Of a DNA stretch of 64,000 nt, positions 6,821 to 55,570 are shown in pieces. The stretch spans positions 2,241,654-2,305,653 of the forward strand of contig NZ_CP007201.1 of NCBI RefSeq assembly GCF_000568815.1, read 5' to 3'. Numbering within the stretch: position 1 is the stretch's first letter; every line of letters begins with the position of its first letter. Both the position numbers and the translations under genes were made by a program. The stretch is from Sulfurospirillum multivorans DSM 12446. GTDB taxonomy: Bacteria; Campylobacterota; Campylobacteria; Campylobacterales; Sulfurospirillaceae. The notes beneath the pieces are model-generated. The model was not told where the DNA came from and made no database searches. It worked only from the letters and a program-made list of their open reading frames with translations.

Positions 6821-6834
6821 CTTTACATGTAAAG
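6821..6834. repeat. CTTTACATGTAAAG palindrome after lplT stop
   Basis: A perfect 14-bp copy of the dispersed palindrome, one base beyond the lplT stop codon. See the window-wide repeat entry. Confidence 0.9.
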
Positions 6835-10621: not shown

Positions 10622-10635
10622 CTTTACATGTAAAG
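10622..10635. repeat. CTTTACATGTAAAG palindrome after amidohydrolase stop
   Basis: A perfect 14-bp copy, four bases past the stop codon of the amidohydrolase gene and about 80 bases upstream of the arsR start. Confidence 0.9.
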
Positions 10636-13496: not shown

Positions 13497-14843
13497 TTAT
13501 GATGAGAGAAGAGATGACACCAACCACGTCATCGCCAAAAGATCGGCACTGCCGCCGGGTGAGAGGTTTTTTGAGATCATATCAGCGTCCAACTCACGCA
13601 AGTGTGCATCTAAATTTTCCACGTTTGGCTTTACATGTAAAAGTGCTTTTGCTTGTGTTTTGGCGTAAGCGAGCCCTTCGATGCCACCTCGTGACCAGAG
13701 CGTGCTGTCATCTAAACGTGACATCAGCAACAGCAGTGTTTTTTTAAGCGCTGTCTCTTCGCCCTCTTCTTCTTTGCATGCTTGGAAAAACGGCAAAGTG
13801 TGTTCAAAAATGATGGCAAAACCACTCTGGGCGATGCCACGAATGCCACTGCTTCCGCTCTCATAAAAGAAGCGTGCCCCTGCGCTGTTGGGCTTTACAT
13901 GTAAAAGATCGTCTTCGACCAACGTGTCGCACAGGGCTTGCATTTGGGCTTGTAAGCTTTTACATGTAAAGCTCTGATCGCTCGCTTTGATGCGACCGAT
14001 GGCACCGCAGAAGACGGCGAGGCAGAAGATCATCCCTTTATGGGTATTGACCCCCGATGTGGCTTCAAACATCGCTTTTTCGCAAGCGATGCCGATCTCT
14101 CGAAGCCTTTTAAAACTCTGTTTGGCATCCTCATGGGCGTAGGTTTGTGCGATGTGAATCCATTGTGGCACAAACGGTTTGATCGCTTGAATGCTTGCGT
14201 AAAAGGTGTGAATGTCCATATCGCGGTGCGCACCGCTGTTGGCTTGGTCGACCAGACCTGGTTTTGGGGTGAGTTCCACTTCGGTTTTCATCGCGCGTTC
14301 ACACCACAAGGCGATGGAGTCGGAAAATGCGTGTTTTTCGACCAAGGTTTTTATATGCGCACCCAGCTCAGTATACGAGTGCTTTTGCGACCGCGCGCAC
14401 AACTGTGCTTCCTCTTCGCAGACAAAACATTTACGTTTGGGAAGTACAAGATCACTTCGGGAGAGAATTTTTCCCGTACAATCGAGCACATCTATATCCA
14501 TCAAACGTCCTAGTGGATGGGCGTTTTCGAGTTTACATGTAAAGACTTTGAGCGCCTTGGCCTCGGCGTTACATGTAAAGAGTGATTCGGCTCCCGTTGG
14601 GGAGCGTTTGCTCTCGCATGCCAGCAGTTCGATGCCCTCGTTTTGAAGCATTGTTAACAGCGCATTGTGCGCGATTTCATGCACGACCACGGCTTCGTGC
14701 GAGAGTTTGATAAAGCTTGGGATGTTGATGCAAAGAGAAATGAGGGACGCCAAAGGGTGGCGGCTTAAAAGCTCTTTTTGCTTCCAAGCACGCTCCTCTT
14801 TGGCGTGTAAAATAGCGTCTAACGATGTTGGTTTGCCTATCAT
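13497..14843 (-). CDS. citXG: CitX-CitG fusion: citrate lyase prosthetic-group biosynthesis and transfer
   Basis: A 448-residue fusion. Residues 1 to about 175 resemble CitX (apo-citrate lyase phosphoribosyl-dephospho-CoA transferase), with HPLGRLMDIDVLD. Residues about 185-448 resemble CitG/MdcB (triphosphoribosyl-dephospho-CoA synthase), with the conserved TPKPGLVDQANSGAHRDMD region. Together they make the 2'-(5''-triphosphoribosyl)-3'-dephospho-CoA group and attach it to CitD. Fused CitXG also exists in Haemophilus. It is the last gene of the cit operon; the citF stop codon abuts its ATG. Unusually, five copies of the ACATGT palindrome lie inside this one gene, encoding FTCN, FTCK, FTCK, LHVK and LHVK. 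Confidence 0.88.
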   Translation of the reverse strand: MIGKPTSLDAILHAKEERAWKQKELLSRHPLASLISLCINIPSFIKLSHEAVVVHEIAHNALLTMLQNEGIELLACESKRSPTGAESLFTCNAEAKALKVFTCKLENAHPLGRLMDIDVLDCTGKILSRSDLVLPKRKCFVCEEEAQLCARSQKHSYTELGAHIKTLVEKHAFSDSIALWCERAMKTEVELTPKPGLVDQANSGAHRDMDIHTFYASIQAIKPFVPQWIHIAQTYAHEDAKQSFKRLREIGIACEKAMFEATSGVNTHKGMIFCLAVFCGAIGRIKASDQSFTCKSLQAQMQALCDTLVEDDLLHVKPNSAGARFFYESGSSGIRGIAQSGFAIIFEHTLPFFQACKEEEGEETALKKTLLLLMSRLDDSTLWSRGGIEGLAYAKTQAKALLHVKPNVENLDAHLRELDADMISKNLSPGGSADLLAMTWLVSSLLSS

Positions 14844-43737: not shown

Positions 43738-44613
43738 ATGAAATTTTACCGTGTCTATGTTGAGCTCACCAATATTTGTGGGCTCAAATGCAGCTTTTGC
43801 CCGCCTCAAGTCATCCCATCGCAGTCGATGCCGCCTGCTTTTTTTGAGCATATCTTAGACGAACTTGCTCCCTACACGAAGGAGATTGCGTATCACATGG
43901 GTGGCGATCCACTCACGCTTTCGCAGTTAAAAGCCTATTTGGATCTTACATGTAAAAAGAATTTTAAAGGCGTGCTCACGACCAGTGGCTACTATTTGGG
44001 CAAACATGACCTTCACACGCTGATGCACCCCGCACTCAAGCAGATCAATATTTCACTCAACAGCTACAATAAAAACAGTATGCCACTCTCGTTTGAAGCA
44101 TACATGGAGCCTATTATTGCACTGTGCAGGCTTAAGAGGGAGCAAAATCCAAACCTTTTTATCAACCTTCGTGTCTGGAATATGGACGCCTCTCAAAGTG
44201 AAAAAACCTTCAATGAAAGGCTCTTTACTTACCTTGAAACCGCCTTTGACATCCCTTTACATGTAAAGCGTCTTTATGAAGAGAAACCTCGTTCCATCAG
44301 GCTTGAGAGCAAGATTCTGCTTCATTTTGATCACTACTTTGAATGGCCCTCCTTGGACTCTTCGCATCACTCGGAAGGAAAATGCTTAGGACTGAGCTCA
44401 CATTTTGGTATACTCTCTAACGGAGCTGTTGTGCCGTGTTGTTTAGACAAAGATGGGGTGATGGAGCTGGGGAATTTACATGTAAACTCACTGAAAAGCA
44501 TTTTAGAAACCCCAAGGGTTCACGCCATCATCGATGGATTTAAACACCACAAAGCTGTGGAGCCTTTATGCCAAAAATGCCACTATAAACACCGATTTGA
44601 GGAGAACGAATGA
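43738..44613 (+). CDS. Radical SAM protein with SPASM-like C-terminus
   Basis: A 291-residue enzyme. CGLKCSFCPP near the N-terminus is the CxxxCxxC radical SAM cluster motif, and MGGDPLTL matches the SAM-binding GGDP/GGEP region. C-terminal cysteines (GKCLGL, VVPCCLD, LCQKCHYKH) suggest an auxiliary SPASM-type cluster. The reaction is unknown. Three palindrome copies encode LTCK, LHVK and LHVN. It overlaps the HIT gene by four bases, indicating joint translation. Confidence 0.75.
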   Translation: MKFYRVYVELTNICGLKCSFCPPQVIPSQSMPPAFFEHILDELAPYTKEIAYHMGGDPLTLSQLKAYLDLTCKKNFKGVLTTSGYYLGKHDLHTLMHPALKQINISLNSYNKNSMPLSFEAYMEPIIALCRLKREQNPNLFINLRVWNMDASQSEKTFNERLFTYLETAFDIPLHVKRLYEEKPRSIRLESKILLHFDHYFEWPSLDSSHHSEGKCLGLSSHFGILSNGAVVPCCLDKDGVMELGNLHVNSLKSILETPRVHAIIDGFKHHKAVEPLCQKCHYKHRFEENE

Positions 44614-46406: not shown

Positions 46407-47648
46407 GTGAGTACCTATGTCGGTAGGCAACCGATTTTTGACAAAGAGGGTGTATGCTTTGGGTATGAGCTCCTCTACCGCTCATGCGATGCCAACAATG
46501 CGGCAACCTTTCAAGACAATGCCAAAGCCACGGCGCGCGTTATTGTCAACCTCATTCACAATATTGGATTGGCTCCTATTATTGGCAACAAGAAAGGATT
46601 TATCAACGTCGACGAGACGATGCTCTTTAGCGATGCGATTTTACTACTTCCTAAAGAGCACTTTGGTTTTGAGATCTTAGAGCATACCAAAGTCTCCCTC
46701 GCCCTTTATGAGCGCGTCAAACACCTTCATTCGCTTGGGTATCATTTTTCACTGGACGATTTTGACTGCAGTGATACGATGATCAAAAACTATGAGCCCC
46801 TTTTTCCGTACATTGAGATCATTAAAGTTGACATTCAAGCCATCACCCTTCCCCATCTTTCAGAGTCCGTTGAGAAGATTCAAAAGTACAACATCCCTCT
46901 TTTAGCCGAGAAAATTGAGACGCACGAAGAGCATGAAGCCTGCTTACAACTGCCTTTTCAGTTTTTCCAAGGTTACTTTTTTGAGCGACCTATCATTTTA
47001 AGCGGTCGTAAAATCGAACCCCATACGGAAAATGCGTTAAGGCTGATCACCTGTATTCAAGAAAACAGCGATGTTCTCTTCATCTCTCACAAATTTGCAA
47101 CCTGCCCTGATCTTGTCTACAACCTGTTGCGCCATGTCAACTCTGGCGCGTACCATTTTAAACAAAAAATTACCTCCATTAAACAAATGGTAACCCTTTT
47201 AGGCCCTCAAAAAATCACCTCATGGTTGGGACTTTTCCTCTATGGAACCCCGCACAACCGCCCTTTTGGCACGGAGATCTTTAACAACGCCAAATTTCGC
47301 GCCAAAGTGATGGAGGAACTCACCCTTACATGTAAAAAACCAGAACTTGCCAACAAAGCCTTTTTAACCGGCAGCCTCTCGTTGATTGACGCGTATCTTA
47401 GCATTCCGATGTATGAGTTTTTAAACCATGTTCAGCTGGATGATGAGATCAAAACGGCACTGCTTTTTCGCGAAGGCTATTTAGGAGAATTGCTGAACAT
47501 AACCATTGAGATGAACCATGCGAATGACGCAGAAGAGATTCTTAAAACACTCAAAAACAACCCCTGCTTTAGTGCGAAAGAGCTTTATGAAGCGTGTATG
47601 AAAGCCACGATCTTTGTCGAAGAGAGTGAGCAAGAACATGAAAGTTAA
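46407..47648 (+). CDS. EAL-HDOD signalling protein (YuxH-like)
   Basis: A 413-residue protein. The N-terminal EAL-like domain (about 1-205) has YVGRQPIF at its start, but YELLYR in place of EALLR and DDFDCS in place of DDFG, so c-di-GMP hydrolysis is doubtful. The C-terminal HDOD domain (about 205-400) follows. Such YuxH-type proteins act as protein-binding regulators. The start is GTG at 46407 with AGGAG six bases upstream. It is followed after nine bases by the SelW-like selenoprotein gene. Confidence 0.8.
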   Translation: MSTYVGRQPIFDKEGVCFGYELLYRSCDANNAATFQDNAKATARVIVNLIHNIGLAPIIGNKKGFINVDETMLFSDAILLLPKEHFGFEILEHTKVSLALYERVKHLHSLGYHFSLDDFDCSDTMIKNYEPLFPYIEIIKVDIQAITLPHLSESVEKIQKYNIPLLAEKIETHEEHEACLQLPFQFFQGYFFERPIILSGRKIEPHTENALRLITCIQENSDVLFISHKFATCPDLVYNLLRHVNSGAYHFKQKITSIKQMVTLLGPQKITSWLGLFLYGTPHNRPFGTEIFNNAKFRAKVMEELTLTCKKPELANKAFLTGSLSLIDAYLSIPMYEFLNHVQLDDEIKTALLFREGYLGELLNITIEMNHANDAEEILKTLKNNPCFSAKELYEACMKATIFVEESEQEHES

Positions 47649-47657
47649 GGAGATAAA

Positions 47658-47903
47658 ATGGAGATAGTCATTTTTTATTGTACCCGTTGAGGTTATATGC
47701 CACGAGCTTTCCGTGTGAAAGATGAAATTTTAAGTGCGTACCCCAATGCCAATGTAGCGTTAAGTCCCAAAACAGGCGGTTTTTTTGATGTTGTCGTCAA
47801 TGAAAAAACGCTTTTTTCAAAAACAGAGAAAATTGGCACCACCATGGAGCGTTTTCCTGAAAGTGGCGAGATCGTTTTATTGCTTCAAAAAGCAGGTTTT
47901 TAA
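47658..47903 (+). CDS. SelW/Rdx-family selenoprotein with in-frame UGA (Sec11)
   Basis: An 81-residue protein if UGA at 47688-47690 is read as selenocysteine. The ATG at 47658 has AAGGAGA just upstream. Translation gives FYCTRUGYMPRAF, the CxxU redox motif of the SelW/Rdx thioredoxin-like family. Further downstream, VALSPKTGGFFDVVV matches the conserved (L/I)xPGxGGxFE(V/I)-like block, and the C-terminus ends in LLQKAGF. Without recoding only a 68-residue fragment from the ATG at 47697 would be predicted, and it would lack the active site. A candidate bacterial SECIS lies 16-30 bases after the UGA. It is cotranscribed with the EAL-HDOD gene. A role in thiol redox is likely by family. Confidence 0.82.
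47707..47721 (+). promoter_or_regulatory. Candidate bacterial SECIS hairpin
   Basis: CUUUC-cgugu-GAAAG forms a 5-bp stem with a G in the second position of the loop, starting 16 bases after the UGA. Known bacterial SECIS loops lie roughly 16-37 bases downstream with a G at the top of the loop. The assignment is by this fit alone; alternative pairings (CACG/CGTG) exist. Confidence 0.45.
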
Positions 47904-47919
47904 CCTTTACATGTAAAGG
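47904..47919. repeat. CCTTTACATGTAAAGG palindrome after selenoprotein stop
   Basis: A perfect 16-bp copy beginning at the base after the TAA stop. Possible 3' hairpin of the EAL-HDOD/selenoprotein mRNA. Confidence 0.9.
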
Positions 47920-48015
47920 CTTCTATTTATTAGAGTTTTTACAGAACTCTTGGTGCTTTTTACTTCTTGCAAAATGAGTTTTGTAAGAAGTCTATTATTT
48001 TTAAAAAGGTTTATC

Positions 48016-49576
48016 GTGGGTTATTTAACAAGCTATTGTGTACGATTTGCCTATTTTTTAGAGGCGTCAGCTCGTTATCATCGCGCCAAAGAGTTTTGCA
48101 GAATGGTTTTGGAACACCAACATTCCAAACTCAAATTTTATTTCGATATTTTTATGGTTGCTTTGGTGGTCATCAGTGTTTTGTTTCTTCTGTATGAAGT
48201 CAAACATCCCGATGGGCACCCTTTTTTAGATGCATTTGTACAGTTCTCTTTGGTTGTTTTTATTATGGAATACCTGCTACGTTTTTGGATTTACTCCGAT
48301 AGTCACAAACTCTTTTTAGAACGTTATGAGTATGCGATCAACAACAACCTTCCTTTTTCACTCCGCCAAACCCTGTATATGGTTGTAAAGAAAAAAGTGG
48401 AATACGTCTTTTCACCTATGGCGATTATCGATCTTTTGGCGATTCTGCCAAGTTACCGTCCACTACGTTTTTTGCGTATTTTCTTGCTCTTTAGAATTTT
48501 TAAACTCTTCCGTTATGCCAGAAGTATGAAAACATTTACAGCGATCATTACAGAGAAAAAGTTTGAACTTTTCACCTTAGCGATCTTTGCCAGCTTTGTG
48601 ATTTTTACAGGAAGCTCCGCCATTTATATCTTTGAAACACACCAAAATCCTAAGATCAACACCCTTTTTGATGCGCTCTACTGGGCGATTGTCACGATGG
48701 GTACGGTAGGATACGGCGACATTGTTCCTGTGACGACCGAGGGAATGGTTGTTGCGATGATTCTTATCATTTTAGGTATTGCCACCATCGCTTTTTTAAC
48801 ATCCATCATCGTATCCTCGTTTCAAAACAAGCTGATCGAACTGAAAGAGAGCCGCCTTTTCTCTGAGATCGAAAAACTGGAAAATTATATTGTTATTTGT
48901 GGCTATGGACGTGTTGGCGAAGTGGTCGCGAAAATGTTGCATGAAGATGGCTATAAACTGGTCATTATCGATAATGATGATGAGAAGATAAAGCTGGCAC
49001 AGCAACGTGGACTCATCGGTATTGTTGCCGATGCTTCCAAGAGTCGCATTTTAGGCGAGCTAGGTGTTGGTCAGCGTGCATCACAAATTATTTGTGCAAC
49101 CCAATAGCGATGAGCTCAATGTCTTTATCACCCTAACCGCTCGAAGCCTGAGCAAACAGATTATTATCATTGCGCGTGTGATCAAAAATACCCATAAAAA
49201 GAAGTACTTTTTAGCAGGGGCTAACTACGCATTTAGTGCCGATGAGACGATAGGACTTATGGGAGCACTTTACATTACGCAACCGATTTCCTATGTAGCC
49301 CTTGATGAGATGGTGACTGAAAACACGGGTGTTGTTTTTGATATGCTGCCTATTCACGAACATGCTTATTTTGTTGACAAACCCCTTGAAACACTGGAAC
49401 TTCAAGACAAACATCTGATACTTTTTGGAATTTTACGAAAAGAGTCTGAACCTGTATTCCAGTTCAATCCAAGTCCTAGTTTTGTGCTTCAAAACCATGA
49501 TATTCTGATTGTTATGGGGCGTAAGCACCACATTAATGCCCTGCGCAAACTGAATGACAAAGGAAGCATGCGATGA
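48016..49576 (+). pseudogene. Voltage-gated-type K+ channel with RCK domains, frameshifted
   Basis: One coding region split into two frames. The first part (start GTG at 48016 with AAAAAGG upstream; an earlier ATG at 47974 is less likely) has S1-S6-like helices, an arginine-rich S4-like RFLRIFLLFRIFKLFRYAR and the filter TMGTVGYGDIVPVT. After it comes a TrkA_N/RCK domain with CGYGRVGEVV, ending at TAG 49105 in RASQIICATQ. The second frame resumes at NSDELNVFITLTARSLSKQ, the natural continuation of CAT, and runs to 49576. Deleting one C from CCC at 49100-49102 would restore ICATNSDELN. It is either a true mutation or a sequencing error. It probably regulated K+ flux together with the next gene. 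Confidence 0.8.
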
Positions 49577-55556: not shown

Positions 55557-55570
55557 CTTTACATGTAAAG
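55557..55570. repeat. CTTTACATGTAAAG palindrome after GGDEF-EAL gene
   Basis: A perfect 14-bp copy, 10 bases past the stop codon. A second copy lies 20 bases to the left within the last codons. Confidence 0.9.

Follow-up and report, generated by a model that had tools for sequence, protein, structure and literature searches.

Results

The selW locus

The window, that is, the whole stretch of 64,000 nucleotides of Sulfurospirillum multivorans DSM 12446 DNA that was analysed here, contains a small gene, selW, lying between two larger genes on the same strand. The features of the locus, with the evidence for them where it is of a particular kind, are the following.

46407..47648, + strand: upstream neighbour, a protein with EAL and HDOD domains; 9-nt gap to selW
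47647..47652, + strand: ribosome-binding site AAGGAG, which shares bases with the EAL/HDOD stop codon (sequence reading)
47658..47903, + strand: selW, SelW/Rdx selenoprotein of 81 amino acids with predicted Sec at codon 11 (UGA) (translation, Pfam Rdx, TIGR02174, homologs with the same UGA)
47679..47690, + strand: CxxU redox motif Cys8-Thr-Arg-Sec11, TGT ACC CGT TGA (translation; UGA kept by 82 of the order's 83 copies)
47707..47721, + strand: bacterial SECIS hairpin, stem CUUUC/GAAAG, loop CGUGU (covariation and RNAalifold)
47950..49107, + strand: downstream neighbour, an ion channel with a TrkA_N domain (start taken from the mechanical ORF list; the gene may really begin further in)

The frame opens with the ATG at 47658, 5 nt downstream of the end of the AAGGAG, and closes at a TAA whose last base is 47903, being open throughout apart from the UGA at codon 11. 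This in-frame TGA occupies positions 47688-47690, in the context Cys8-Thr-Arg-UGA-Gly, and the read-through translation continues with the GG-F block of the family, here KTGGFFDVVV. All of this agrees with the initial annotation, which had described a well-placed ATG with its ribosome site, a UGA at codon 11 within a CxxU motif, and the GG-F block. It had also anticipated that standard annotation would report a 68-residue product devoid of the active site; indeed, the only ORF that translation table 11 yields in this frame is one of 68 amino acids, starting at the internal ATG 47697 and lacking the CxxU motif.

Family membership

The read-through protein matches the Pfam Rdx family (PF10262) over residues 3-76, covering nearly the full profile, with an E-value of 3.5e-19 and 69.2 bits against a cut-off of 22.6, and it also passes the curated cut-off of TIGR02174 (CXXU_selWTH; 50.2 bits against 34.2). 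Whole-domain scores above the cut-off for both families are accompanied by a CxxU motif near the N-terminus. The top-scoring NCBIfam model is NF041051 (SelTWH_Campy), described as a SelT/SelW/SelH family (seleno)protein, although the score, computed with Cys substituted for Sec, is 82.1 bits (E 2.5e-23) and thus lies under the curated cut-off of 88. Consequently, members of this particular group may still be misnamed. A thioredoxin-like fold is assumed for the product from solved relatives located by sequence, namely selenoprotein W (2npb) and bacterial Rdx proteins including 3dex, 2fa8 and 2oka; in all three alignments shown (3dex, 2fa8 and 2oka), a Cys stands opposite the selW UGA.

Conservation of the UGA across the order

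Across 399 genomes of the order Campylobacterales, selW was found in 81, in a total of 83 copies. Exactly one in-frame TGA is kept in 82 of these copies, which are spread over 14 genera, and no Cys version of the gene was found among the 83 copies in the 399 genomes. Homologs lacking Cys or Sec at this position, which had been named as grounds for abandoning the selenoprotein reading, are thus not what the order contains. The sole exception is a frameshifted selW pseudogene in genome G274 (L103, G274:C1:253075-253275), in which the frameshift falls just before the UGA and the outer pair of the SECIS stem is broken; this genome has no selA or selB above the cut-off, and its best tRNA-Sec-like match is below the cut-off as well. 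Taken together, the retention of the UGA, the lack of any substitution by Cys and the decay of the gene where the machinery is missing suggest, at the level of comparative sequence analysis, that the gene depends on Sec.

Several individual copies deserve mention in their own right. Genome G297 carries a second, divergent SelW copy (L091, about 750-980; G297:C96:103766-103966) that reads FYSKUHYG, and which seems to have lost the Cys of the CxxU motif while retaining the UGA. In G250 (L104, G250:C1:2109628-2109798), the frame diverges past approximately residue 55, likely through a frameshift, with the UGA and the SECIS intact. Finally, an Rdx match in G233 was rejected as spurious, being weak, below the cut-off and interrupted by five stops.

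The SECIS hairpin

The hairpin consists of five base pairs, 47707-47711 with 47717-47721, and is separated from the UGA by 16 nt. In an alignment of 47 distinct sequences, gap-free from the UGA on, the G in the loop (47713, alignment column 26) is invariant, and the five pairs show standard pairing in every cell (100%). What is more, two-sided compensatory changes occur in 47 cells as compared with 11.8 in shuffled alignments, a value reached by none of 500 shuffles, while shifting the partner strand by 1-3 columns lowers the pairing to 48-70%. RNAalifold independently recovered the same helix. The stem variants include CUUUC/GAAAG, CUGCA/UGCAG, CUCUG/CAGAG, CUACC/GGUAG and CUUCU/AGAAG, so that the RNA partly dictates which amino acids are encoded there. 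Single-sequence folding of the window hairpin does not rise above shuffled sequence (z 0.13 to -0.40), and the proof of the SECIS is therefore entirely comparative. With the 16-nt spacing, the invariant G and the covariation, the earlier description of a hairpin with a G in its loop at the distance of a bacterial SECIS is borne out.

An Rfam search gave no credible match at the selW locus. Searching with the SECIS model R1 revealed no second clear SECIS, the next best matches having E-values of 0.4 in the genome and 0.66 in the window; R1 was derived from SelW sequences and would consequently miss the SECIS elements of other selenoproteins. In G358 (L063, G358:C1:1224553-1225188), selW occurs as a tandem pair with a UGA in both copies. 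The first of these has a one-codon insertion between the UGA and the hairpin, which still reads CUUCU-AGUGU-AGAAG, and it was excluded from the SECIS alignment.

Selenocysteine machinery

The host genome is a single contig of 3,175,729 bases, and the search for selA, selB, selC and selD that the initial annotation had called for found all four in it. Those relatives found that carry a name belong to Sulfurospirillum.

2707385-2707481: tRNA-Sec (selC), 51.7 bits against a gathering score of 47; ARAGORN tRNA-SeC, anticodon tca
2795401-2796711: selA, directly before selB
2796742-2798559: selB, directly after selA

The tRNA-Sec call is supported by two methods, namely by a score above the gathering threshold and by ARAGORN, and selD is present in its Cys form. 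An absence of the machinery, the other ground on which the initial annotation was to be given up, does not apply, and the genome combines a conserved in-frame UGA and a downstream SECIS with a loop G with the complete set of selA, selB, selC and selD. Beside selD lies a stretch of approximately 60 bases (G000:C1:2744170-2744233; L114:4171-4234) with many partial copies in genomes of the same genus, which looks like a dispersed repeat.

In the order as a whole, selB (E<=1e-60) is present in 73 of the 81 genomes with selW, as opposed to 114 of the 318 without it. Six of the eight selW genomes without selB at this threshold, which are fragmented assemblies, do have selA (G271, G289 and G313) or tRNA-Sec (G319, G295 and G337) next to an intact UGA-containing selW, consistent with these assemblies being incomplete. 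A different case is G172, a genome of the same genus as the host, where both the UGA and the SECIS of selW (L086, G172:C13:227950-228171) are intact, searches for selA, selB and tRNA-Sec yielded nothing above the cut-off, and a DNA comparison with the selD segment was negative. This could be a real loss or a gap in the assembly, and a gap is possible because the Sec genes lie within approximately 90 kb of each other in the window's genome; in the 40 kb of G172 that were compared, the match to this stretch was limited to a single 1.9-kb piece. It is rather unlikely, in our estimate, that an intact selW with its SECIS has here outlived selA, selB and tRNA-Sec, and perhaps selD, in which case the loss would be very recent or the UGA would be decoded otherwise.

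Neighbourhood and a dispersed palindrome

The EAL/HDOD gene upstream of selW, which is followed downstream by the TrkA_N ion channel gene, is probably co-transcribed with selW. In 18 loci selW is flanked by both of these genes and in 2 more by the upstream EAL/HDOD gene alone, giving 20 Sulfurospirillum-type loci, while the other 64 selW loci examined have neither the EAL/HDOD nor the TrkA_N neighbour. This suggests an operon inside the Sulfurospirillum group and no functional link across the order.

As a feature separate from selW, the window contains 17 copies of the palindrome TTTACATGTAAA, against 0.01 expected, at sites including 6822-6833, 10623-10634, 13630-13641, 44256-44267, 47906-47917 and 55558-55569, and a separate 100-kb segment of the genome adds 21 further copies. 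Its core, TTACATGTAA, is the most frequent 10-mer in the window (29 copies against 0.1 expected), with 19 of the 29 sites within long ORFs in a window that is about 90% coding. The palindrome resembles HIP1 in its dispersed occurrence; a full-text literature search found no paper describing TTTACATGTAAA in bacteria.

Discussion

Our preferred reading is that the gene encodes selenoprotein W of the SelT/SelW/SelH (Rdx) family and that SelB and the SECIS direct the insertion of Sec at codon 11, to which we assign a probability of roughly 96%. The gene, its family, the conserved UGA, the SECIS and the Sec machinery can be regarded as established, as far as sequence can establish them. In mechanistic terms, SelB carrying Sec-tRNA(Sec) would bind the hairpin that begins 16 nt past the UGA, and the bound complex would lead to the insertion of selenocysteine. 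That Sec is incorporated in this organism as well is probable by extension from the results in C. jejuni. The product would be a small thioredoxin-like protein, in which Cys8-x-x-Sec11 most likely alternates between the selenenylsulfide and the thiol-selenol forms and could thereby reduce a partner protein or a peroxide, a redox role that the family points to.

How might the in-frame UGA be understood otherwise? One could argue that the 68-residue protein is what functions in the cell, with the upstream part being a leader stopped at the UGA; after all, the standard code allows no other ORF in this frame, and the ATG for this one exists. However, dozens of species conserve the upstream frame together with its Cys8, Met14, the residue that this ATG encodes, is absent outside Sulfurospirillum-type sequences (where residues such as K, R or L occur instead), and a SECIS 3' of the UGA is under compensatory selection, all of which makes such a product very improbable. 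Less probable still is an in-frame stop that arose by chance, in a pseudogene or through an error of sequencing: one stop inside a short gene would normally point that way, but the recurrence of the same UGA in copy after copy and genus after genus refutes it, and the true pseudogene in G274 looks different, with its frameshift and its broken stem pair.

An equally slim chance attaches to a readthrough of the UGA that inserts Cys, Trp or some other standard amino acid in place of Sec. The case for it is G172, which retains the gene although the search for Sec machinery gave nothing above the cut-off and which, as an exception, also counts against the Sec reading. That said, such a readthrough would leave the SECIS hairpin without a role, and the occurrence of selW tracks that of selB in nearly all genomes. 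For these reasons, we retain the reading as a SelW/Rdx selenoprotein, which is how the gene was initially annotated.

Was the gene in fact overlooked, as was claimed? Only in part: it is easily missed, and this copy scores under the NF041051 cut-off, but the family has been published (PMC4607533, PMC11955535) and an NCBI model for it exists. Namely, by 2005 a SelW had been predicted in C. jejuni (PMC1242214), epsilonproteobacterial SelW genes with a UGA and a SECIS, missed by annotation, were described in 2015 (PMC4607533), and in 2025 Ribo-seq and proteomics revealed full-length C. jejuni SelW past the UGA (PMC11955535). The finding raises no new mechanistic question; rather, a Sulfurospirillum-type genome gains a well-supported selenoprotein, and an example is provided of how standard gene calling loses an active site.

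The selW of the window is, in this sense, a further member of the known SelW family, the same protein being known in related bacteria. With PF10262, TIGR02174 and NF041051 it shares a full-length match, the CxxU/CxxC motif and the GG-F block, and it differs from NF041051 in scoring under that model's curated cut-off. The covariance model for the epsilonproteobacterial SelW SECIS describes a 5/6-bp hairpin with an invariant loop G (PMC4607533), and the window has such an apical hairpin soon after its UGA, whereas the main text of that paper makes no mention of Sulfurospirillum. The closest parallel is C. jejuni SelW, an ORF on CJnc60 (PMC11955535, PMC3847290), which likewise belongs to the SelW family, has an early UGA in a frame of 80-81 residues and was missed by annotation, having once been listed as a non-coding RNA (CJnc60). 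Its neighbouring genes, however, are other than those of the window selW and, while the group of the window reads CTRU-GYMPRAF, our sequence group f11, probably Campylobacter, reads CN(L/S)U-NY or -SY.
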